From contig JAFGMI010000056.1 of NCBI GenBank assembly GCA_016927595.1, forward strand, positions 1 to 64,000: 64,000 nt of DNA, in the 5' to 3' direction. The DNA comes from Melioribacteraceae bacterium (GTDB taxonomy: Bacteria; Bacteroidota; Ignavibacteria; Ignavibacteriales; Melioribacteraceae). A program made the translations under genes and the position numbers. Numbering within the stretch: position 1 is the stretch's first letter; each line of letters begins with the position of its first letter. Below the pieces are notes generated by a model. That model was given only the letters and a program-made list of their open reading frames with translations. It did not search any database and was not told the DNA's origin. Shown here one piece after another: positions 12,612 through 58,248 of the stretch.

Positions 12612-12662
12612 ATGAAAATACGTACTCACTTACATCATCATCATATTTATTCCCTCAGATGA
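12612..12662 (+). CDS. hisL: His operon leader peptide
   Basis: A 16-codon frame (ATG to TGA) reading MKIRTHLHHHHIYSLR. Five of codons 6-11 are His (CAC, then CAT x4). It lies 90 bp before hisG and is followed at once by alternative antiterminator and terminator pairings. This is the layout of ribosome-mediated attenuation known from enterobacterial hisL. The match of His codons, position and hairpins makes chance unlikely, although the peptide is short. Confidence 0.88.
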   Translation: MKIRTHLHHHHIYSLR

Positions 12663-12720
12663 GTGTCGGTGAAATACGTTTATAAATTTTACAAACCCGG
12701 CACATGCCGGGTTTTTTGTT
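12663..12720 (+). promoter_or_regulatory. His attenuator (antiterminator and terminator)
   Basis: The terminator is a perfect stem with AAACCCGGC (12693-12701) pairing GCCGGGTTT (12706-12714) across an ACAT loop, followed by a T run. The competing antiterminator pairs GTGTCGG (12663-12669), directly after the leader stop codon, with CCGGCAC (12697-12703): seven pairs including one G-U. Forming it consumes the 5' arm of the terminator. A ribosome stalled on the His codons leaves 12663-12669 free, so hisG is transcribed. A ribosome at the stop codon covers it, so the terminator forms. Confidence 0.85.
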
Positions 12721-20435: not shown

Positions 20436-21221
20436 TTATCTGCAAGCTTCTTTTAGTTCTCTTACTAATTCAGAAGTTTTGGTAAATTTATCATCGTCTG
20501 CAGATAAGCTTTTAACAATCGCACTTCCAACAATAACTCCGTCGCAATAAGGAGAAAATGTTTTAACATCCTCACCGCTTTTAATACCGAATCCTATCAG
20601 CATTTTATTTTTGACGATAGTATTATAAGTTCTCTCCAGATTCAAAATTACCTCATTACCGAAAGCACCTCTTGTCCCGGTTATACCAACTACACTAACG
20701 CAATAGACGAATCCAGAACTTAGTTCGTCAATCATCCTTATTCTTGATTCAGAGGAAGTCGGTGTTGTAAGTATGATTTTATCAAATTTATCAAATTTGT
20801 CTGAATAAAATTCCTCATGTTCTTCAAGAGGAATGTCCGGAAGTATCAGACCGTTTATTCCAGCATTAAAGGCATCATTGCAGAATTTATCTAAACCGTA
20901 ACTGTTAACCGGATTTGCAGAACTCATAAGGATCACCGGTATATCCGAGTAATATTTTATTTCCTCGGTGAATTTTAGAGTATCTTTTATTGTAATGCCG
21001 TTCTTCAGAGCAGTAGTAAATGAACTTTGTATAACAGGACCGTCAGCCAGTGAATCACCGAACGGAACACCGATTTCAATAATATCGGCACCATTATTAA
21101 TAACTGCTTTTGCAGCGTTTATGAATGATTCTCTTTCAGGAAATCCGGCTGTTAAAAAAACCGATAATACTTTCTGCTGACTTATGTTAATCCTTTCAAT
21201 CCTTTCCGATATATAACTCAT
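20436..21221 (-). CDS. trpA: Tryptophan synthase alpha subunit
   Basis: A 261-residue TIM barrel releasing indole from indole-3-glycerol phosphate. The catalytic Glu and Asp are in DIIEIGVPFGDSLADGPVIQ, and the phosphate site is near GIKSGEDV. It is the last gene of the trp operon. Its ATG abuts the trpB stop, and it converges with the LRR gene 21 bases away with no obvious terminator between them. Confidence 0.96.
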   Translation of the reverse strand: MSYISERIERINISQQKVLSVFLTAGFPERESFINAAKAVINNGADIIEIGVPFGDSLADGPVIQSSFTTALKNGITIKDTLKFTEEIKYYSDIPVILMSSANPVNSYGLDKFCNDAFNAGINGLILPDIPLEEHEEFYSDKFDKFDKIILTTPTSSESRIRMIDELSSGFVYCVSVVGITGTRGAFGNEVILNLERTYNTIVKNKMLIGFGIKSGEDVKTFSPYCDGVIVGSAIVKSLSADDDKFTKTSELVRELKEACR

Positions 21222-22435
21222 TAAAACTGTTCTCCGGTTTCTTTAATAATTGTATTTAAATCTTTATCACCCCTTCCACTCACATTAACAACCACTATCT
21301 CATTCTCTGCTGTCGACGGCATCAATTTATCTAAATATGCGAAAGCATGTGCTGTTTCCAATGCGGGCAAAATGCCCTCTAATTTTGCTAATGTTCCTGT
21401 CGAATATAAAGCCTCTTTGTCTGTAACTGAATAATACTCCGCACGTTTTATATCTTTAAGCAGACTGTGTTCGGGACCTACACCAGGGTAATCGAGTCCA
21501 GCTGAAATTGAATGAACCTCCGATATCTGCCCGTTGACATTCTGCAGTAAATAAGTTTTCATTCCCTGAAAAATTCCTGTCGTGCCAAGCGATAGAGTTG
21601 CACAGTGTTTATCAGTGTCAATACCGTATCCTGCTGCTTCAACCCCTATCAGTCGAACATTTGGATCGTTAACGAATGGGTAGAATATGCCGATAGCATT
21701 AGAGCCTCCGCCTACACATGCAACGATATAGTCTGGGAGTTTGTTCTCTTTTACTTTTAGTTGATTCTTGGTCTCAATCCCGATAATTGACTGAAAATCC
21801 CTCACGAGCATAGGGTAAGGATGCGGACCGACTACCGACCCGATTATATAATGCGTATCTACAACATTGGTAACCCAGTCTCTTATTGCCTCATTAGTAG
21901 CATCCTTTAATGTTTTACTTCCGGATTCAACAGGTATAACTTCCGCACCGAGCATTTTCATCCTGAATACATTTAGCTTTTGCCGTTCAACATCGACTGA
22001 TCCCATATAAACTACACACTTCAAACCGAATTTGGCACAGACAGTTGCTGTCGCGACCCCATGCTGTCCTGCACCGGTCTCGGCAATTATTCTTTTTTTA
22101 CCGAGTCTTTTTGCAAGAAGTATTTGTCCCAGCGCATTATTCAACTTATGTGCACCGGTATGGCATAAATCTTCACGCTTTAGATAAATTTTTGCTTTCC
22201 TGTAATGTTCTGTTAATCGTTCTGCGAATGTTAAAGGTGTGGGACGACCATTATAATCTATTTGCAGAGCATTCAGTTCGTCGATAAACCGGGTATCTTT
22301 CTTGTATTTAGTGTAAGCTGCTTCAAGTTCTGTCAATGCGGTCATTAATGTTTCCGGTACAAACCTGCCTCCGTAAATGCCGAATTTACCTTTAACATCT
22401 GGATAGTTATAAATATTATCCTTTGGTGTCATCAA
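21221..22435 (-). CDS. trpB: Tryptophan synthase beta subunit
   Basis: 404 residues, PLP enzyme joining indole to serine. The PLP lysine is in [13 protein letters not shown], and the phosphate-binding GGGSNAIG and the C-terminal SGRGDKDL are present. It belongs to the TrpB1 class by sequence and context. It overlaps the DAHP synthase gene by four bases. Confidence 0.97.
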
Positions 22436-23451
22436 CTAATTTTCCTCCCGACCACTTGAGCCAATTCTTTTAGTTTTTCGAGTAATGATTTAAATTGTCC
22501 CGGTGTCAGTGACTGATAGCCGTCTGATAATGCTTCCTCGGGTTTATGATGTACTTCGATAATCAATCCATCCGCTCCTGCAGCTATTGATGCCATCGCC
22601 ATCGCAGGTACTTTGTCCCATATCCCAACACCGTGTGAGGGATCAACAATAATAGGCAGGTGTGAGTGTTTTTTTACAACCGGCACGGCATTTAAATCGA
22701 GTGTATTTCTCGTTGAATTTTCAAATGTTCTTATGCCTCTTTCGCAAAGTATTACATTATAATTATCCTGCGCAAGAATATATTCAGCACTCAGCAGGAG
22801 ATCCTCGACCGTTGCTGACATACCTCTTTTTAATAAAATTGGTTTTTTTGTTGTGCCTGCTTCAACAAGTAAAGTAAAGTTCTGCATGTTACGGGCTCCT
22901 ATCTGTAGTATATCTGCAGTCTGTGCCACTGCAGGCAAAGATTCAGTATTCAGAACTTCAGTTACGATTTTTAATCCGTACTTGACTTTTACTTCAGCAA
23001 GATATTCAAGTCCTTTCTCCTTCAACCCCTGGAATGCATATGGGCTGCTTCGGGGTTTGTACGCACCAGCTCGAAGAAATTTAACCCCCATTTCAGACAA
23101 TTGTCCTGCAATATCATGTATCTGATCCCGGCTTTCAACCGAGCAAGGTCCGGCACATATAAAAAGTTCCTGCGAACCGATCTCAGTATTATCAAATTCT
23201 ATAACAGTATCCTCATTTTTCATCTGCCTGCTTACGAGCTTGTATTTTTTTGTTACTCTCACAACTTCCTGTACCGAAGGCATTAATTGAAAGTATTCTT
23301 CATCAAGTTTATTTGTCTGTCCGGTAATTCCGATCGCAAGTTTTGATGAACCGGGTATTTCATGGGGAGTGCAGCCGAGTGAGCGTATCTTTTCAACAAC
23401 TTTTTCCACATCCGAACGAGGCGAATTCAAATCCATTATTACCAGCATCAT
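22432..23451 (-). CDS. aroF: 3-deoxy-7-phosphoheptulonate (DAHP) synthase
   Basis: 339 residues of the type I-beta DAHP synthase/KDO8P synthase family. An N-terminal ferredoxin-like regulatory domain (about 1-70) precedes the TIM barrel, with [40 protein letters not shown] and a C-terminal metal/substrate region. It makes the first intermediate of the shikimate pathway. It sits between trpF and trpB, so entry into aromatic synthesis should follow the trp attenuator. Allosteric control by Phe or Tyr is usual for the domain layout but is not shown here. Confidence 0.92.
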
Positions 23452-24062
23452 CTTCCTCTGAGAGAATTAAACATATTCATAAGTTCATTTAATTTATAAG
23501 GATTTTTTTTGCCTGGTGAATCTTCAATCGAAGATGACAGATCAATTGCTTCGGGCTTTATTTTTGTGATAATATATTCAAGATTATCAACCGATATACC
23601 GCCGGCAATAATCAATTTGCTTCTTAGATTTACCGGAATATTATCCCAGTTGAAACTTTTTCCCGTACCGCCTAATTCATTCTTATCAAATCCGTCGAGC
23701 AGATGAGAGCAATCATGGAATTCTTCAAGAAGTGAAAAATTAAAACCATCTTCTACGCGAAAGGCTTTGATAACCGGCAAAGATATTTTATCGGCATATT
23801 CAGTTGTCTCGTTCCCGTGAAGCTGTACTGCATTCAGACCAATTTTATCGGCAGTTGAATTAACCTCATCAAAACCTTCATCAACGAACACACCAACCTT
23901 GACAAGGAATGCAGGAAGTTTTTTAATGATCAACCTTGCATCATTCGGAGCAATAAATCTCTTGCTGTGTCTGTAAAATATAAACCCTATTGCATCAGCG
24001 CCTTTTTCTGCTGCTAGTTTTGCATCTCCAAGATTAGTAATACCGCATATTTTAACTCTCAT
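23448..24062 (-). CDS. trpF: Phosphoribosylanthranilate isomerase
   Basis: A 204-residue TIM barrel performing the Amadori rearrangement of phosphoribosylanthranilate. Catalytic Cys is in KICGITN, Asp in HLLDGFDKNELGGTGKSF, and the phosphate site in IAGGISVDNL. It overlaps trpC by 11 bases and aroF by four. Its presence means the HisA proteins are not required to be PriA-like. Confidence 0.94.
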   Translation of the reverse strand: MRVKICGITNLGDAKLAAEKGADAIGFIFYRHSKRFIAPNDARLIIKKLPAFLVKVGVFVDEGFDEVNSTADKIGLNAVQLHGNETTEYADKISLPVIKAFRVEDGFNFSLLEEFHDCSHLLDGFDKNELGGTGKSFNWDNIPVNLRSKLIIAGGISVDNLEYIITKIKPEAIDLSSSIEDSPGKKNPYKLNELMNMFNSLRGR

Positions 24063-24849
24063 TTGAACACCATTCTCTCATTTGCCTGAATGAATTATTT
24101 ATATCTTTCTGCTTCATGAAATATTCACCGATCAGAACTGCTTGCACTCCGGAATTTCTCAACAGGTCAATATCGTTTTTTGAATGGATGCCAGATTCTG
24201 AAACAAGAACAACGTCTTCAGGAATTTGTTTGCTCAATTCGATAGTCGAATTTAAATCAACTGAAAAATCATCGAGATTACGATTATTAACTCCTATAAG
24301 TTTGTTGATGTTAAAATCTATTTTTGTTAATTGTCCGCCATCGTGAAGTTCAAGTAACACTTCAAGATCATTCTCTCTTGCAGCATGAGATAACTCCATG
24401 ATCTGATTTTTTGACAAGGCTTCTGCGATTAAAAGTATAATATCAGCACCATGTGCCTTTGCCTCGAAAATCTGATATTCATCTATAATAAAATCTTTTC
24501 TTAACAGGGGACAGCTTTTTACTGTCGCGATGTCACTCAAATATTTAATATCACCCTGGAAAAAATATTTGTCTGTTAAAACTGAGATGGCTGCTGCACC
24601 GCCGTTCATAAAAATATCAGCAATTTTAAGGTGATTAAAATTCTCTCGTATTATTCCTTTCGACGGACTGGCTTTTTTTACCTCAGCAATAATTCCAATT
24701 TCATTACCGCTGCCGAGTTTCTCGGTAAATTTAATTCTTCTTGTATTAAAGAAATCAAAGTTGGTAAAACGCGTAAATGTAAATTCTTTCCTGAGTTGTT
24801 TTACTTCCTCTTTCTTAGTTTCCAGTATATCGGATAAAATATTTTTCAA
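24052..24849 (-). CDS. trpC: Indole-3-glycerol phosphate synthase
   Basis: A 265-residue TIM barrel. The catalytic Lys and Glu lie in IAEVKKASPSKG and the LVSESGIHS segment; GVNNRNLDDF is the family strand-7 motif. The gene starts immediately after trpD. Confidence 0.95.
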   Translation of the reverse strand: MKNILSDILETKKEEVKQLRKEFTFTRFTNFDFFNTRRIKFTEKLGSGNEIGIIAEVKKASPSKGIIRENFNHLKIADIFMNGGAAAISVLTDKYFFQGDIKYLSDIATVKSCPLLRKDFIIDEYQIFEAKAHGADIILLIAEALSKNQIMELSHAARENDLEVLLELHDGGQLTKIDFNINKLIGVNNRNLDDFSVDLNSTIELSKQIPEDVVLVSESGIHSKNDIDLLRNSGVQAVLIGEYFMKQKDINNSFRQMREWCSNES

Positions 24850-25857
24850 TTAATCTCCGAATGATTTTAATTCATTCAATTTATTCATTGCTTTACCGGA
24901 TAATATCGATTCCTCCGCAAGACTTATACATTCATTAAAATCTTCTGAAACTCCAGCAACTTTTAATGCAAGCGCAGCATTAGCCGCTACAACATAATAT
25001 GGCGCGGACTTTTCTCTGCCTGAAAATATGTTGTAAATTATTTCTGCGTTCTCTTTTGCCGAATTACCCTTTATTGCCTCAACATCAATTCGGGGAAAGT
25101 TAAAGCTGTTGTGGTCGAGCTTGTACATGCTTTTCATTAAAGGAGAATATTCAATTATGCTTGAGGGATGCGATAAACTTATTTCATCAAAAGAATTATT
25201 CGTACAAACGAAACAAACTTTATCCATATCGAGATACTCCACAGCCTCTGACATTAATTTGGATGCATATTCATTGAATGTTCCTATGAGCTGTCGCTTT
25301 GTTCCGGCAGGATTTGTCAGGGGACCCAGAATATTAAAAATTGATCTGAACTCGAGCTCTTTTCTGATTGGCGCTACATGTTTCATAGCTGGATGATAAA
25401 GAGGCGCAAATAAAAATGCTATGCCGATTGTATTCAACGCCCACTGCGAACTCTCGGGAGATAGATTAACATCCACACCCAGTTCGTGAAGCACATCCGA
25501 ACTTCCGCTCTTACTGGAAATTGAGCGGTTGCCGTGCTTTGCAACTTTAACCCCCGCGCCGGCCACTACAAAACAGACTGCAGTTGAAATATTGAATGAG
25601 CCGGAGCCGTCGCCTCCGGTTCCGCATACGTCAATTACAACATCATCATCGCATTCAATTTTAATTACTTTTTCGCGCATCGCTTTTACAAAACCAGCAA
25701 CTTCCTGGCTAGTTTCGCCTTTCATCTTTAATGCTGTAAGCAGGGAAGCGATTTGGGAATTATTTTCATTACCGCTCATTATTGAATACATAATCTTATA
25801 GGCTTCGTCTAAAGTAAGACTTTCGCCTGCAATTACTTTTTCTAGATATTGTTTCAT
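24850..25857 (-). CDS. trpD: Anthranilate phosphoribosyltransferase
   Basis: 335 residues. The PRPP-binding motif is CGTGGDGSGSFNIST and the anthranilate pocket includes KHGNRSISSKSGSSDVLHELG. Normal length, not fused to trpG. It overlaps trpG by four bases. Confidence 0.96.
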   Translation of the reverse strand: MKQYLEKVIAGESLTLDEAYKIMYSIMSGNENNSQIASLLTALKMKGETSQEVAGFVKAMREKVIKIECDDDVVIDVCGTGGDGSGSFNISTAVCFVVAGAGVKVAKHGNRSISSKSGSSDVLHELGVDVNLSPESSQWALNTIGIAFLFAPLYHPAMKHVAPIRKELEFRSIFNILGPLTNPAGTKRQLIGTFNEYASKLMSEAVEYLDMDKVCFVCTNNSFDEISLSHPSSIIEYSPLMKSMYKLDHNSFNFPRIDVEAIKGNSAKENAEIIYNIFSGREKSAPYYVVAANAALALKVAGVSEDFNECISLAEESILSGKAMNKLNELKSFGD

Positions 25858-26420
25858 AGCTCCAACCAGTTTTTAATTATTCTATCACCCATTGGTGTTA
25901 ATATTGATTCGGGATGGAATTGAATTCCCTCAACAGGATATGATTTGTGTCTTACTCCCATTATTACATCTTCGTCGGTTGTTGAGGTAATCTCAAGTTC
26001 CGCTGGAAAATTTCTGTGTGATATTACAAGAGAATGATACCTGCCCGCTTCGAATTTTTGCGGTATGTTCTCGTAGACTGTTCTGCAGTCATGCACAACA
26101 AGCGAGGTTTTCCCATGCATCAAAGTTGGTGCGTGCTCAATTGTTCCGCCAAATGTTATTCCGATACCCTGATGACCGAGGCAGACACCCAGAACAGGAA
26201 CGGATTTTCCCAGCTCTTTTATGACTTCCAGAGATATTTTGGAATCTTCAGGTCTGCCGGGTCCCGGTGAGATAACAATCTTATCGGGTTTTAAGTTTTC
26301 TATTTCATCCAGAGAAATCTTATCATTTCTTTTTACGACTATGTCTTTTGTGAACTTACCTACAAGCTGTACCAGATTGTAAGTGAAAGAATCATAGTTA
26401 TCAATCATCAGAATTTTCAT
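25854..26420 (-). CDS. trpG: Anthranilate synthase, glutamine amidotransferase subunit
   Basis: 188 residues supplying ammonia to TrpE. Nucleophile Cys in GVCLGHQGIG, triad His/Glu in IQFHPESIL, family start MIDNYDSFTYNL. I place the start at the ATG at 26420, overlapping trpE by 20 bases; a start at 26447 lies further inside trpE and is less likely. It may also serve PabA function. Confidence 0.94.
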   Translation of the reverse strand: MKILMIDNYDSFTYNLVQLVGKFTKDIVVKRNDKISLDEIENLKPDKIVISPGPGRPEDSKISLEVIKELGKSVPVLGVCLGHQGIGITFGGTIEHAPTLMHGKTSLVVHDCRTVYENIPQKFEAGRYHSLVISHRNFPAELEITSTTDEDVIMGVRHKSYPVEGIQFHPESILTPMGDRIIKNWLEL

Positions 26421-27879
26421 CAATAACCTCTGCGAATTTAAGCGCACTCAAAAGAACTGCCGATTTGTTTCTTATTTCTTTCAACTCAAGTTCGGGTATG
26501 CTGTCTGCAACAATTCCGGCTCCCGCCTGCCAGTAAATGTTATCATTAGCTGCGAATAATGTGCGAATGGCAATGCACATATCAAGATTACCGCTGAAAT
26601 CTATATATCCTACTGCGCCGGCATAAACATTGCGTTTAAGCTTTTCGTATTCATTTATTAATTGTATCGCCCGAATTTTAGGTGCACCGGAAACGGTTCC
26701 TGCTGGAAAACTCGCATTCAGAGCATCAATACAATCCATACCGTCTCTCAGCAATCCTTCAACTCTTGACACAATATGCATTACATGAGAGAACCTGTGA
26801 ATTTTCATTTTCTCGCTGACTGAAACTGTATCATAATTACAAACTCTTCCTAAATCATTGCGCGCCAGATCAACAAGCATCTGATGCTCTGCTATTTCTT
26901 TGGGATCATTTAATAAGTCATTTTCGAGCGAATGATCCTGCTCTATGGTTTCACCACGCTTTCTTGTTCCAGCGATGGGAAGGATGGTTGCTCTGTTATC
27001 CTTTACTTTAATAAGATCTTCGGGTGATGTTCCGATTATGGTAAGCTCATTTCCAAACTCCATGAAGTACATATATGGCGACGGATTTATAATTCTCAAT
27101 GCGCGATAAACATTAAGGAGATCACCGATGTAACCGCTTTTAAATCTTTTCGAAAGTACTAGCTGAAATACATCACCCTCATAGATGTTCTGTTTACCTT
27201 TATTAACAATTTCGAAAAATTCTTTTTCATCGAATTGCTCGTATATGTTGTCAAGCAGCTTAAAATCGGATGAATATTGCAAGGGATGTAATAGAGTCTT
27301 CTTAACTGAATCAATTTCACTTACGGCATAATCATAAGCTTCTCTGATGTCGTTAAATTCATCAAGATTAATATTGCAGATAATAATAACCTGGTGTTTA
27401 TAATGATCAAACGCAATTACGGTATTAAACAATCCAAAGATTGAATCGGGAGTATTAAGATGATCCTTACCGTTAAATTCAATTGTATTCTCTATTAAAG
27501 AGATATTTTCAAATCCGATATACCCTACAAGACCACCGGTAAAATCAGGTAATCCGTCAACAGAAGAATGTTTATACTTCTTCACTTCTCTTTTAAGGTA
27601 AGTAAATATATTTTCATTCAATCTGGTTTCAGATCCGTTCTGGTTAACCGAAATATGATAGCCGTAATTTTTTATAATCATCTTCGGATCTTTTCCGATG
27701 AACGAAAAGCGCGCAAGCCTTCCGATTCCTTCAACAGATTCCAGTAAAAAACTATAGCCGCCTGTGCTTCTTAGCTTAAGATAGGCTAAAACCGGTGTCA
27801 GTAAATCACCGGTAATTTTTTTATGAACAGGAATAATCCTGTATCTTTTTGTCAATTCAGAAAATTCTTCAAATATCAT
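26401..27879 (-). CDS. trpE: Anthranilate synthase component I
   Basis: 492 residues. The N-terminal Trp-binding motif LLESVEG shows that feedback inhibition is retained. The C-terminal chorismate-binding domain shows GTRKRG, DLARNDLGRV, FPAGTVSGAPKIRA and GAVGYIDFSGNLDMCIAIRT. First enzyme gene of the operon. It is preceded by a Trp leader peptide and attenuator, so it is controlled both allosterically and by attenuation. Confidence 0.96.
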   Translation of the reverse strand: MIFEEFSELTKRYRIIPVHKKITGDLLTPVLAYLKLRSTGGYSFLLESVEGIGRLARFSFIGKDPKMIIKNYGYHISVNQNGSETRLNENIFTYLKREVKKYKHSSVDGLPDFTGGLVGYIGFENISLIENTIEFNGKDHLNTPDSIFGLFNTVIAFDHYKHQVIIICNINLDEFNDIREAYDYAVSEIDSVKKTLLHPLQYSSDFKLLDNIYEQFDEKEFFEIVNKGKQNIYEGDVFQLVLSKRFKSGYIGDLLNVYRALRIINPSPYMYFMEFGNELTIIGTSPEDLIKVKDNRATILPIAGTRKRGETIEQDHSLENDLLNDPKEIAEHQMLVDLARNDLGRVCNYDTVSVSEKMKIHRFSHVMHIVSRVEGLLRDGMDCIDALNASFPAGTVSGAPKIRAIQLINEYEKLKRNVYAGAVGYIDFSGNLDMCIAIRTLFAANDNIYWQAGAGIVADSIPELELKEIRNKSAVLLSALKFAEVIDENSDD

Positions 27880-27920: not shown

Positions 27921-27954
27921 AAAAAACCCCTCTCAGCGGTGCCGGGAGGGGTTT
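27921..27954 (-). terminator. Trp attenuator terminator, with antiterminator 27930-27995
   Basis: On the minus strand AAACCCCTC pairs GAGGGGTTT around a GC-rich loop, followed by six T. The competing antiterminator pairs CTCTCAGTGG (27995-27986, inside the end of the leader frame) with CCGCTGAGAG (27939-27930): ten pairs including one G-U. It consumes the terminator loop and part of the 3' arm. A ribosome stalled at the Trp codons leaves it free; one that reaches the leader stop codon covers it. Confidence 0.87.
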
Positions 27955-27980
27955 CCAAATAAAAAATTATGTTAATCACC

Positions 27981-28070
27981 TCATTCCACTGAGAGCTCCC
28001 GTGAATCCATATGCCACCACCACCAGTTTTTGTTTTGAATGAGTTGATATTTCATTTTTTCGGTTTTCAT
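27981..28070 (-). CDS. trpL: Trp operon leader peptide
   Basis: A 29-codon frame with four consecutive TGG codons (residues 16-19, NWWWWH), starting MKTEKMKYQL and ending in TGA at 27981. It lies about 100 bp before trpE and directly upstream of a terminator and antiterminator pair. Four adjacent Trp codons at this place are diagnostic of a trp leader peptide. An in-frame ATG at codon 6 is an alternative start. Confidence 0.92.
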   Translation of the reverse strand: MKTEKMKYQLIQNKNWWWWHMDSRELSVE

Positions 28071-28078
28071 ATTGCATG

Positions 28079-28110
28079 CAAACATAAATAAATTTGTATA
28101 CTGTTGTCAA
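28079..28110 (-). promoter_or_regulatory. Promoter of the trp operon
   Basis: On the minus strand TTGACA (28110-28105) is followed, 21 bases after its TTG, by TATGTTTG (28086-28079), an exact TAnnTTTG element. Transcription should begin near 28072, placing the leader ATG at 28070 almost at the 5' end. The promoter lies just past the end of the gene at 28134-29615. Confidence 0.65.
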
Positions 28111-28133: not shown

Positions 28134-29615
28134 TTATAACGATTCAGCATGGAACCAGTCACTTACAAACACACTCCTGTTCTCGGTCGATTTATGAGTA
28201 AATTCGTTTGTCCTGCTCGAGTAAATATAATCTTTGGCCCATTCATCTCCGTACTTTACTGTCTCTTCTATTGCGTCCAGACAATATTCAAGCTCTTCAT
28301 CTGTCATGGTTGGATGAATTGAAATTCGAACCCAGCCTGGTTTATCGGACAAGTCGCCTTGATTAATTTTTTCAGTAATTTTTTTTGACCGGGTCGGATC
28401 GAGATGGAGTAAATAATGCCCGTATGTACCAGCGCATGAGCAGCCGCCTCTTACCTGTATGCCGAATTTATCATTAAGCATTTTAACAATAAGATTATAA
28501 TGAAAATCCTCTGCATAAAATGATAATACACCCAGCCTATCCTTCTGATTATTTGCAAGGAGGTGGATTTTTTTTATCTCTCTGAAGCGTTCGAAAAATC
28601 TTTTAAGTAATTCTTCCTCACGGGCAATGATGTTTCCTGTGCCCATTTGCTCTTTCAGTTTTATAGCTAATGCAGTTTTAATAGCTTGCAGAAAACCCGG
28701 GGTACCGCCATCTTCTCTTGTTTCAATATCAGTAATGTATATGTGGTCACCCCAAGGATTTGTCCAATCGACTGTACCGCCACCCGGATGATCCGGAATA
28801 TTTTTATTATAAAGCTTTTTATCGAATATCAGAACACCTGATGTTCCGGGACCTCCCAGAAATTTATGAGGTGAAAAAAATATTGCATCAAGTTTTTCTT
28901 CGGGATCCTCAGGGTGCATATCTATCGGAACGTATGGTGCAGAAGCTGCAAAATCTATAAATGCCAGTCCGCCGTATCTATGCATAATTTTTGCCAGTTT
29001 ATAATAGTCAGTTTTTATACCTGTTACATTTGAGCATGCCGTGAATGATCCGATTTTAAGAGGTCTATTGCTGAATTTTTTAAGCTGATCTTCAAGATTG
29101 CTATACTCAATTAAACCTTCATCGTTCGGCTCGATAATAATAACATCTGCAATTGTTTCAAGCCATGAAGTATGATTTGAATGATGCTCCATATGCGTAA
29201 TGAATACAACGGGTCGTTCTTGTTCGGGAATAACAACATACTTTCGGAGTTGTTCGCATACTTTCAACCCCAGTATTCTCTGAAATTTGTTTATTACAGT
29301 TGTCATTCCGAATCCGGCTGTTATAATTACATCATTGTCGTTTGCATTAACATGCTGCTTAATAATCTTATGAGCTTCCCGATAAGCCCTAGTCATTGTT
29401 GTCCCGGTTATACTTGTTTCAGTATGGGTATTCCCAATCCATGGACCAAAAACGTTTGTCAATCTATCTTCAATGGGTTTATACAATCTGCCGCTGGCAA
29501 CCCAGTCAGCATATATTATTTTCTTTTCCCCGTTTGGTGAAATGAATGTCTTATCTATACCGATAATATTATTTCTGAATTTCTCGAAATACTTCTGAAG
29601 ATTTTCCATATTCAA
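28134..29615 (-). CDS. Class V aminotransferase, cysteine desulfurase-like
   Basis: 493 residues, PLP-dependent, resembling cysteine desulfurase/selenocysteine lyase. PLP lysine in FFSPHKFLGGPGTSGVLIF; the His of HMEHHSNHTSW stacks on PLP in this fold; a Cys-containing loop is at RGGCSCAGTYGHYLL, where desulfurases have the active Cys. It is longer than IscS/SufS (about 400) through a C-terminal extension. No SufBCD or IscU gene is nearby, so sulfur transfer in Fe-S assembly is unproven. It stands alone behind a 500-base gap. Confidence 0.8.
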   Translation of the reverse strand: MNMENLQKYFEKFRNNIIGIDKTFISPNGEKKIIYADWVASGRLYKPIEDRLTNVFGPWIGNTHTETSITGTTMTRAYREAHKIIKQHVNANDNDVIITAGFGMTTVINKFQRILGLKVCEQLRKYVVIPEQERPVVFITHMEHHSNHTSWLETIADVIIIEPNDEGLIEYSNLEDQLKKFSNRPLKIGSFTACSNVTGIKTDYYKLAKIMHRYGGLAFIDFAASAPYVPIDMHPEDPEEKLDAIFFSPHKFLGGPGTSGVLIFDKKLYNKNIPDHPGGGTVDWTNPWGDHIYITDIETREDGGTPGFLQAIKTALAIKLKEQMGTGNIIAREEELLKRFFERFREIKKIHLLANNQKDRLGVLSFYAEDFHYNLIVKMLNDKFGIQVRGGCSCAGTYGHYLLHLDPTRSKKITEKINQGDLSDKPGWVRISIHPTMTDEELEYCLDAIEETVKYGDEWAKDYIYSSRTNEFTHKSTENRSVFVSDWFHAESL

Positions 29616-57595: not shown

Positions 57596-57682
57596 CGGAG
57601 AGAGTGGGATTCGAACCCACGGTACGGTTACCCGTACACACGCTCTCCAGGCGTGCCAGTTCAACCACTCCTGCATCTCTCC
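57596..57682 (-). tRNA. tRNA-Ser(GGA)
   Basis: On the minus strand: acceptor GGAGAGA pairing TCTCTCC, a long variable arm (GTACGGGTAACCGTAC), T-loop GGTTCGAATCC and anticodon loop CTGGAGA, giving anticodon GGA. Class II tRNA of 87 nt with discriminator G; CCA is not encoded. Confidence 0.95.
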
Positions 57683-58160: not shown

Positions 58161-58248
58161 GGAAAGGTGCCGGAGTGGTTGAACGGGGCGGTCTCGAAAA
58201 CCGTTGATCCCATTTTGGGATCCGAGGGTTCGAATCCCTCCCTTTCCG
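58161..58248 (+). tRNA. tRNA-Ser(CGA)
   Basis: Acceptor GGAAAGG pairing CCTTTCC, anticodon loop CTCGAAA giving anticodon CGA, a long variable arm (GATCCCATTTTGGGATC) and T-loop GGTTCGAATCC. Class II tRNA-Ser of 88 nt with discriminator G; CCA is not encoded. Confidence 0.95.

Follow-up and report, generated by a model that had tools for sequence, protein, structure and literature searches.

The window, that is, the whole 64,000-nucleotide stretch of DNA analyzed here, carries on its minus strand a trp operon whose first gene, trpE (26401–27879), is followed by trpG, trpD, trpC, trpF, a DAHP synthase gene of the TIGR01361 type, trpB, and trpA (20436–26447). The assignment of trpE is based on a TIGR00564 score of 515.1 bits, against a cut-off of 517.7, and on the operon context, which also names the gene. 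The DAHP synthase gene is located at 22432–23451 (minus), flanked by trpF and trpB, and through it the first step of the shikimate pathway may come under the same Trp attenuator control as the remainder of the operon.

To judge from its nearest named relatives, the genome seems to belong to the Melioribacteraceae (Ignavibacteria). On the minus strand, the leader region is flanked by a cysteine-desulfurase-like gene (28134–29615) and trpE (26401–27879). It contains a leader ORF, MKTEKMKYQLIQNKNWWWWHMDSRELSVE, consisting of 29 codons and a TGA stop (27981–28070, minus; ATG at 28070–28068 and TGA at 27983–27981), which is kept in relatives and in which four consecutive regulatory TGG codons can be read directly at 28014–28025. 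Downstream of the ORF, the sequence, its folding, and the alignment all identify a terminator, in which the 5′ arm AAACCCCTC (27954–27946) and the 3′ arm GAGGGGTTT (27932–27924) form a 9-bp stem, the 3′ arm and the six T (27926–27921) together occupying 27921–27932. The general features of a trp attenuator, namely, a tandem-Trp leader ORF ahead of trpE and an intrinsic terminator between the ORF and trpE, are both present at this locus; the terminator (27954–27921) was absent from the list of a consensus scan.

Between the Trp codons and the terminator, CTCTCAGTGG (27995–27986) pairs with CCGCTGAGAG (27939–27930) over 10 bp, including one G-U. The former segment is the antiterminator strand (hereafter designated strand 2a; CUCUCAGUGG at 27986–27995, minus), and the latter, its target (strand 3; 27930–27939, minus), comprises the terminator loop and the upper 3′ arm, a pairing that belongs to the family as a whole. 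An extra 4-bp stem (CGGC/GCTG) sits within the terminator 'loop', on top of a C-A mismatch, so that the upper part of the terminator stem is likewise taken up by the competing pairing. The pairing energy with the loop and 3′ arm is −18.8 kcal/mol in the window, a value equalled by none of 100 dinucleotide-preserving shuffles of the sequence linking the Trp codons to the terminator. Two further pairings accompany it on the same strand: GAGG of strand 2b (27979–27982) pairs with CCUC (27949–27946) of the terminator 5′ arm, forming an inner antiterminator helix, and strand 1 (AUCA, A, CUCAUUC; 28037–28048) pairs with 27986–27975 in a 1:2 protector hairpin. A sequence-only reading of this DNA had already named the 29-codon frame with its four TGG, the 9-bp stem with six T, and the 10-bp competing pairing, all of which agree with the sequence to the nucleotide; missing from it were the 1:2 hairpin, the minor helix formed with the 5′ arm, and a promoter of the Bacteroidota type.

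This candidate promoter consists of TTGACA, a −33 type element (28105–28110, minus), and the −7 element TATGTTTG (28079–28086, minus) of the Bacteroidota sigma-A type TAnnTTTG, separated from the leader ATG by 8 nt. The motif is also present in relatives. In the 32 nt preceding the leader ATG, the exact TAnnTTTG occurred in 33/61 leaders (a count that omits the window leader, L001, and L009, for both of which a further-upstream ATG was used as the anchor), as compared with 43/2570 places chosen at random in these regions, and its end was separated from the ATG by 6–12 nt in 30 of the 33. A loose motif (TAnnTTT, or TA plus three bases plus TTTG) was found in 47/61 leaders, yet also at 341/2570 random places, and among the 61 relatives examined, 47 had a −7 like motif, 38 of them with a similarly spaced TTGA. 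Because the motif spans positions −12 to −5 in Flavobacterium psychrophilum (PMC9723704), the leader transcript is predicted to start at about 28074, which would leave the window with about 4 nt of 5′ UTR and, by the same reckoning, the 30 relatives with TAnnTTTG at 6–12 nt from the ATG with 2–8 nt. In the consulted parts of two papers, leaderless mRNAs account for 5.5% in F. psychrophilum (PMC9723704), and 5′ UTRs shorter than 10 nt for about 3.7% in Bacteroides (PMC7366714).

Conservation of the leader and the grip of the antiterminator

TrpE was detected in 46/58 relatives, and a species collection contributed 54 loci. The 99 trpE loci, from which the partial matches G028:C389 and G032:C242 were left out, yielded 80 distinct upstream regions, 78 without L082 and L095, and 61 after dereplication. 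A Trp-rich leader frame with a terminator, defined as a frame opening with ATG and holding two or more TGG within four codons, with a hairpin and T run at −11.5 kcal/mol or better behind it (a limit chosen after the real values were known), was detected in 78/80 distinct regions and in 0/400 dinucleotide-shuffled regions; among the latter, the frame occurred in 12 and any hairpin in 6 of those, none reaching −11.5 kcal/mol. At least three TGG were present in 66/80 real regions, against 0/400 shuffled ones. The two failing regions were L095, with neither frame nor terminator, and L082, with a terminator and without two TGG within four codons.

The spacing of these elements is also largely shared, strand 2a starting 28–37 nt after the first Trp codon in 66/78 leaders and 30 nt after it in the window. 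The antiterminator had been placed by the sequence-only reading inside the last leader codons, which is correct for the window and does not extend to a general rule: among the 78 leaders, strand 2a starts anywhere between 19 nt upstream and 24 nt downstream of the first nucleotide of the stop codon.

In alignment A1 of the 61 dereplicated leaders, strand 2 occupies columns 49–59 and the terminator loop with the upper 3′ arm columns 122–132. Within the antiterminator helix, 70.0% of the cells were paired, as compared with 31–42% when the helix was slid, and 63 cells were changed on both sides, as compared with 28.0 in shuffles (reached by 0/500); examples are U-A to C-G in columns 52/129 (23 and 19 rows) and A-U to G-C in columns 54/127 (38 and 11 rows). 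The two measures least misled by relatedness gave 7 pairs with both-sided changes, which is the shuffle level (mean 6.8, reached by 300/500), and 22 further pair types, reached by 19/500 shuffles. For the terminator, 95.6% of the cells were paired, and 9 of 13 pairs had both-sided changes, against 4.7 in shuffles (0/500). Paired changes in the antiterminator, which is exclusive with the terminator, are therefore seen on most measures, the count of both-sided pairs being the one at shuffle level. Together with the TGG run and terminator in 78/80 trpE upstream regions, this covariation bears out the earlier proposal, and the leader, terminator, and pairing evidence from the relatives supports trp attenuation by a trpL-like logic as the probable function.

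Which terminator arm is gripped was examined by an own-species test, in which the pairing energy of a species' own strands is compared with that of strands exchanged between species (2000 exchanges). Strand 2a showed a marked preference for its own loop and upper 3′ arm (z −10.3; 0/2000), as opposed to the terminator 5′ arm (z −0.9; 391/2000), and the 5′ arm was in turn preferred by 2b, the segment just after 2a (z −6.0; 0/2000). Strand 1, which served as the background control, gave z −2.0 with the 5′ arm and −2.6 with the loop and 3′ arm. In terms of energy, the pairing with the loop and 3′ arm was stronger than that with the 5′ arm and loop in 57/61 dereplicated leaders, the exceptions being L037, L045, and L092, which favour the 5′ arm, and L029, which ties; taken singly, the pairing of 2a with the loop and 3′ arm surpassed the leader's own shuffles at the 0.05 level in 34/61 cases. 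The same procedure applied to E. coli trpL gave the reverse, strand 2 pairing at −10.9 with the 5′ arm (with or without the loop) and at −4.9 with the loop and 3′ arm. From the own-species z scores, the energy preference, and the contrast with E. coli, the antiterminator of this family is a two-helix clamp, in which a main helix holds the loop and upper 3′ arm and a small, inner one the 5′ arm. The assignment of the antiterminator to the loop and 3′ arm rather than the 5′ arm, made from the sequence alone, accordingly stands for the main helix and needs correction for the 5′ arm, which is also engaged by 2b.

The strand shared by the two helices is paired unequally well in them. In 57/61 rows, the upper five pairs of the terminator include a wobble, mismatch, or gap, most commonly one G-U, which falls on one or the other of two adjacent positions (18 and 14 rows), and at 44 of 53 terminator wobble cells the antiterminator is Watson-Crick with the same base; the non-Watson-Crick cells number 90 in the terminator (gaps counted) versus 56 in the antiterminator. 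The antiterminator core of five pairs is fully Watson-Crick in 24/61 leaders, with at least two mismatches in 5 rows. The terminator wobble may tilt the shared strand to the antiterminator side for as long as the terminator is unfinished.

The z scores of 2a (−0.9 for the 5′ arm and −10.3 for the loop and 3′ arm), the stronger pairing with the latter in 57/61 leaders, and its Watson-Crick match to the 3′ arm at 44/53 terminator wobbles also make it unlikely that this is a plain attenuator of the E. coli type, in which strand 2 would act on the terminator 5′ arm and its match to the loop and 3′ arm would follow incidentally from the similarity of strand 2 to the 5′ arm. The 5′-arm pairing of the window is appreciable (−11.7 kcal/mol) and ranks at 0.017 among the partners from other species, but at 0.28 versus shuffles, and in 59/61 leaders this pairing falls within the shuffle range (p above 0.05). 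Taken whole, strand 2 slightly prefers the 5′ arm of its own species (z −4.8), and the his leaders of the same genomes, as well as the trp leaders of f7 and f43 described below, are of the E. coli type. As the main antiterminator, then, the 5′-arm pairing is not supported (shuffle range in 59/61, z −0.9, and 57/61 preferring the loop and 3′ arm), and the classical 2:3/3:4 arrangement, with the antiterminator strand on the 5′ arm, was not found for 2a, the minor 2b being the part that does touch this arm.

Protector hairpin and competition between folds

The codons preceding the Trp run (strand 1) pair with strand 2. Over all 61 leaders, the energy of this 1:2 pairing was −15.07 for own strands versus −10.50 for exchanged ones (z −12.1; 0/2000); 30/61 leaders taken singly beat their own shuffles at 0.05, and the window's own 1:2 energy was within the shuffle range (0.31). 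The hairpin shows two registers among the relatives. In group A2 (17/78 leaders, selected by motif), the partner of strand 1 is 2a together with the stretch before it; 83.8% of the cells were paired (29–40% when slid), with 18 both-sided cells versus 6.6 in shuffles, 6 both-sided pairs versus 4.4 (78/500), and fewer pair types than in shuffles. In group A3 (19 leaders including the window, 15/24 picked by motif and 4 by hand), strand 1 is paired chiefly to 2b and the stretch behind it; 80.6% of the cells were paired (37–48% when slid), with 26 both-sided cells versus 10.9 in shuffles and 8 both-sided pairs versus 5.2 (14/500). Both groups hold near-duplicates absent from the 61 and lean towards 1:2, the unselected test being the z of −12.1. 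One such exchange is seen between the similar leaders L001 and L009 (CUCAUUC/GAAUGAG vs CUUAUUC/GAAUAAG). As judged from these sequences, the 1:2 hairpin is present at the family level, the window alone being no better than shuffles.

The competing states were folded with the ribosome and all RNA behind it removed and with an assumed footprint of 12 nt ahead; the same 12 nt downstream of the stop are also used in the consulted part of PMC4833913. For transcripts ending at column 132, a ribosome at the first Trp codon gave the antiterminator (P > 0.5) in 47/61 leaders and the terminator in 9/61. With the ribosome at the stop, the terminator formed in 50/61 and the antiterminator in 7/61, a result built in by construction where the stop falls in or after strand 2; without a ribosome, the corresponding numbers were 41/61 and 14/61. 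At column 130, the antiterminator was favoured with the ribosome at the first Trp codon (51/61, terminator 1/61) and without a ribosome (27/61, terminator 15/61), and the terminator with the ribosome at the stop (44/61, antiterminator 7/61). The folding of the leader, named beforehand as a check on the attenuator, gave at column 132 a change from the antiterminator under stalling (47/61) to the terminator at the stop (50/61). Both helices of the clamp appeared in these folds: for a ribosome at the first Trp codon and a transcript ending at column 131, the main helix was formed at P > 0.5 in 49/61 leaders and both helices in 46/61, and some pair between the post-2a segment and the 5′ arm in 51/61. 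The window at column 132 gave values of 1.00 for the antiterminator when stalled, 0.98 for the terminator at the stop, and, without a ribosome, 0.63 for the antiterminator and 0.16 for the terminator; at column 130, the values were 0.37 for the antiterminator when stalled and 0.93 for the terminator at the stop, with neither formed in the ribosome-free state.

In the full transcript, the terminator was favoured in 59/61 leaders under all three ribosome states. The antiterminator as an equilibrium fold during the ribosome stall is ruled out by this result. Since the terminator wins the full transcript in every state, the antiterminator would have to outrun the polymerase, and the folding model points to the trp leader being a kinetic switch.

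A ribosome at the stop left the antiterminator free in 7/61 leaders. Eight leaders (L003, L011, L020, L040, L073, L079, L087, and L099) have an antiterminator strand starting 11–13 nt after the first stop nucleotide, where occlusion at the stop is not obvious because this distance is the edge of the assumed footprint. A stop codon far downstream in region II lowers basal read-through according to a remark by Elf and Ehrenberg, in the consulted part of their paper (PMC1183508), and a stop inside strand 2 fits this remark.

The ribosome-free folds bear on a second reading, namely, a two-state switch having no working 1:2 hairpin, in which a ribosome at the stop would alone decide by covering strand 2 and an untranslated leader would read through. 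The own-species 1:2 pairing is strong over the 61 leaders (z −12.1), the 1:2 helix has paired changes in the two chosen groups A2 and A3, and the ribosome-free state favours the terminator in 41/61 leaders at column 132. These results render such a switch distinctly improbable, although the ribosome-free window favours the antiterminator at column 132 (0.63 vs 0.16), as does the family at column 130 (27 vs 15 of 61), the window's 1:2 hairpin is no better than shuffles, and the leader stop lies inside the strand-2 region.

In other bacteria, trp is under TRAP or T-box like control; a protein- or tRNA-sensing leader of this kind with an incidental Trp-rich frame is here hardly credible, with a clustered-TGG frame in 78/80 upstream regions, 2a starting 28–37 nt after the first Trp codon in 66/78 leaders, and no Rfam family at this leader at the gathering score. 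When the threshold was relaxed (up to E 5), the Rfam search returned five weak matches, to PyrR, STnc180, STnc560, and two snoRNA families, and neither Trp_leader nor T-box.

We thus consider it likely that the trp operon is controlled by a ribosome-mediated transcription attenuator with a mirror-image, two-helix antiterminator. This reading is based on the sequences, their conservation, the family-level pairing of the helices, the arm preference, and the folding competition. Translation, stalling, the response to Trp, and the kinetic race would enter the attenuator model as follows. RNA polymerase would start a few nucleotides before the leader AUG, and a ribosome would follow. When charged tRNA-Trp is scarce, the ribosome would stall on the four UGG codons and keep strand 1 off strand 2, and strand 2a would stay free because its start lies 30 nt downstream of the first Trp codon. 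The loop and upper 3′ arm of the terminator, as they emerge, would then be captured by 2a, with part of the 5′ arm held by 2b, and the clamped terminator would fail to nucleate before the polymerase leaves the T run, so that trpE would be transcribed. When Trp is plentiful, the ribosome would reach the stop codon and cover 2a and 2b, and the terminator would form. A leader free of ribosomes would presumably fold 1:2 and terminate in many relatives, and not clearly so in the window.

Polarity of the grip among related and distant leaders

The window leader and E. coli trpL are alike in having a short tandem-Trp ORF, a terminator before trpE, a competing antiterminator, and a 1:2 protector hairpin. 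They differ in the polarity of the grip, strand 2 of the window family pairing with the loop and upper 3′ arm and having a second helix on the 5′ arm, and in the position of the Trp codons, which lie in the 1:2 hairpin loop in the window family and within strand 1 in E. coli trpL. The Rfam Trp_leader covariance model (presumably RF00513) gave no match to the window leader at the gathering score or up to E 5.

Leaders of the opposite polarity occur in the same genomes. hisG was found in 31 of 39 relatives, and among the 30 hisG loci read, 24 had His-run leaders, 23 of them with a terminator. These resemble the trp leader in having a His-run ORF, a terminator, and a strand 2 that uses the terminator loop; unlike in the trp leader, the pairing with the 5′ arm and loop was the stronger in 20/23, the exceptions being L162, L171, and L173. 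The window itself carries such a his attenuator ahead of hisG (12612–12717, plus), with the leader MKIRTHLHHHHIYSLR and the terminator AAACCCGGC ACAT GCCGGGTTT, and its strand 2 pairs with the 5′ arm and loop. The same polarity was observed in trp leaders from outside the order, namely, those of f7, from relatives of the class (6/6; −14.2 to −24.0), and of f43, from another class (3/3; −13.8 to −15.9), which share with the window family a Trp-rich leader before trpE (named by eye), a terminator, and a strand 2 complementary to it. One trp leader of f24 resembles the window type, and two of f5 and one of f20 are ambiguous in arm preference.

Because the his, f7, and f43 leaders favour the 5′ arm and loop and the window family the loop and 3′ arm, the grip polarity has probably changed at least once in these leaders, provided that they are of common descent. 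A simple path would be that strand 2, as the reverse complement of a terminator stretch, slid from the 5′ arm and loop towards the loop and 3′ arm, in which case 2b could be a remnant of the old 5′-arm contact. Separately, L092, L045, L037, and L029, the leaders of the window family that favour the 5′ arm or tie, could be intermediate stages of this change in polarity or cases of its reversal.

No description of trp attenuation in Ignavibacteria, and none of a loop/3′-arm antiterminator in a leader-peptide attenuator, was found among the matches listed in a literature search that excluded most subscription journals. An article by Lopatovskaya et al. (2010; Mol Biol 44:128), cited in PMC4833913, may cover trp attenuators in Bacteroidetes/Chlorobi. 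The trp attenuators of actinobacteria (Corynebacterium and Streptomyces) are candidate classical ones with gGCC-rGCy-GGCC triples (PMC1262725); they are similar in having UGG repeats, a terminator, and an antiterminator, and differ in that no loop/3′-arm antiterminator is described in the consulted part of that paper. A riboswitch description in the consulted part of PMC10653944 has the 5′ side used, and that of PMC9723704 mentions 'strong clues' that amino-acid operons of F. psychrophilum are preceded by attenuators of the leader-peptide kind. Ribosome-mediated trp attenuation is thus known, and what appears to be new, as far as sequences can tell, is the grip of the antiterminator on the loop and 3′ arm in Ignavibacteria.

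In textbook attenuation, the antiterminator takes the near (5′) arm, which is the first to be made by the polymerase. The relatives examined use the far arm, which is made last, and the choice would therefore be settled at the moment of that arm's emergence. This kinetic question is directly testable, with natural opposites available as controls in the his leaders of the same genomes and the trp leaders of other lineages, and mirror-image parts of this kind may be useful for synthetic switches. The findings would also extend ribosome-mediated trp and his attenuation to a little-studied group, the Ignavibacteria. On balance, we lean towards a broader picture, in which these bacteria use a kinetic mirror-image attenuator that clamps both half-made terminator arms, mainly the loop and 3′ arm; the polarity of the grip would have flipped within the leader of one operon with the logic kept, the terminator would be weakened by wobble where the antiterminator is strong, and the peptide would be read from an almost leaderless mRNA.

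Related leaders elsewhere were sought with model R1. In the window's own genome, it matched 13 places at E up to 10, strongly only at the known site (5.5e-10; next 0.022), and three further places read (L149–L151) held no leader of this kind. Among the matches listed in other genomes of the class, 15 places were read, of which 10 precede trpE, 1 a TrpB-like gene, and 4 neither (genes named by eye); in the wider phylum, 3 of 9 places read precede trpE and 6 do not, one of the three having a GTG start only and another just two Trp codons. The use of R1 as a detector elsewhere was rejected, its weak matches mixing real and chance ones. A scan for Leu/Ile/Val-run leaders upstream of ilvB, requiring runs of at least 4, found none in 14 regions.

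A second WWWW leader, MKLNLNIAYVNLFWWWWRYSSLPS, with a terminator was observed at L141 (G254:C23:1475–1573, minus), where it stands before a TrpB-like gene (by eye) instead of trpE. L150 (G000:C16, around 65700–66000) has, ahead of a gene for a PLP enzyme of sulfhydrylase-like appearance, a stretch that by eye resembles an S-box (SAM) riboswitch. The window also contains two tRNA genes, at 58161–58248 (plus) and 57596–57682 (minus).
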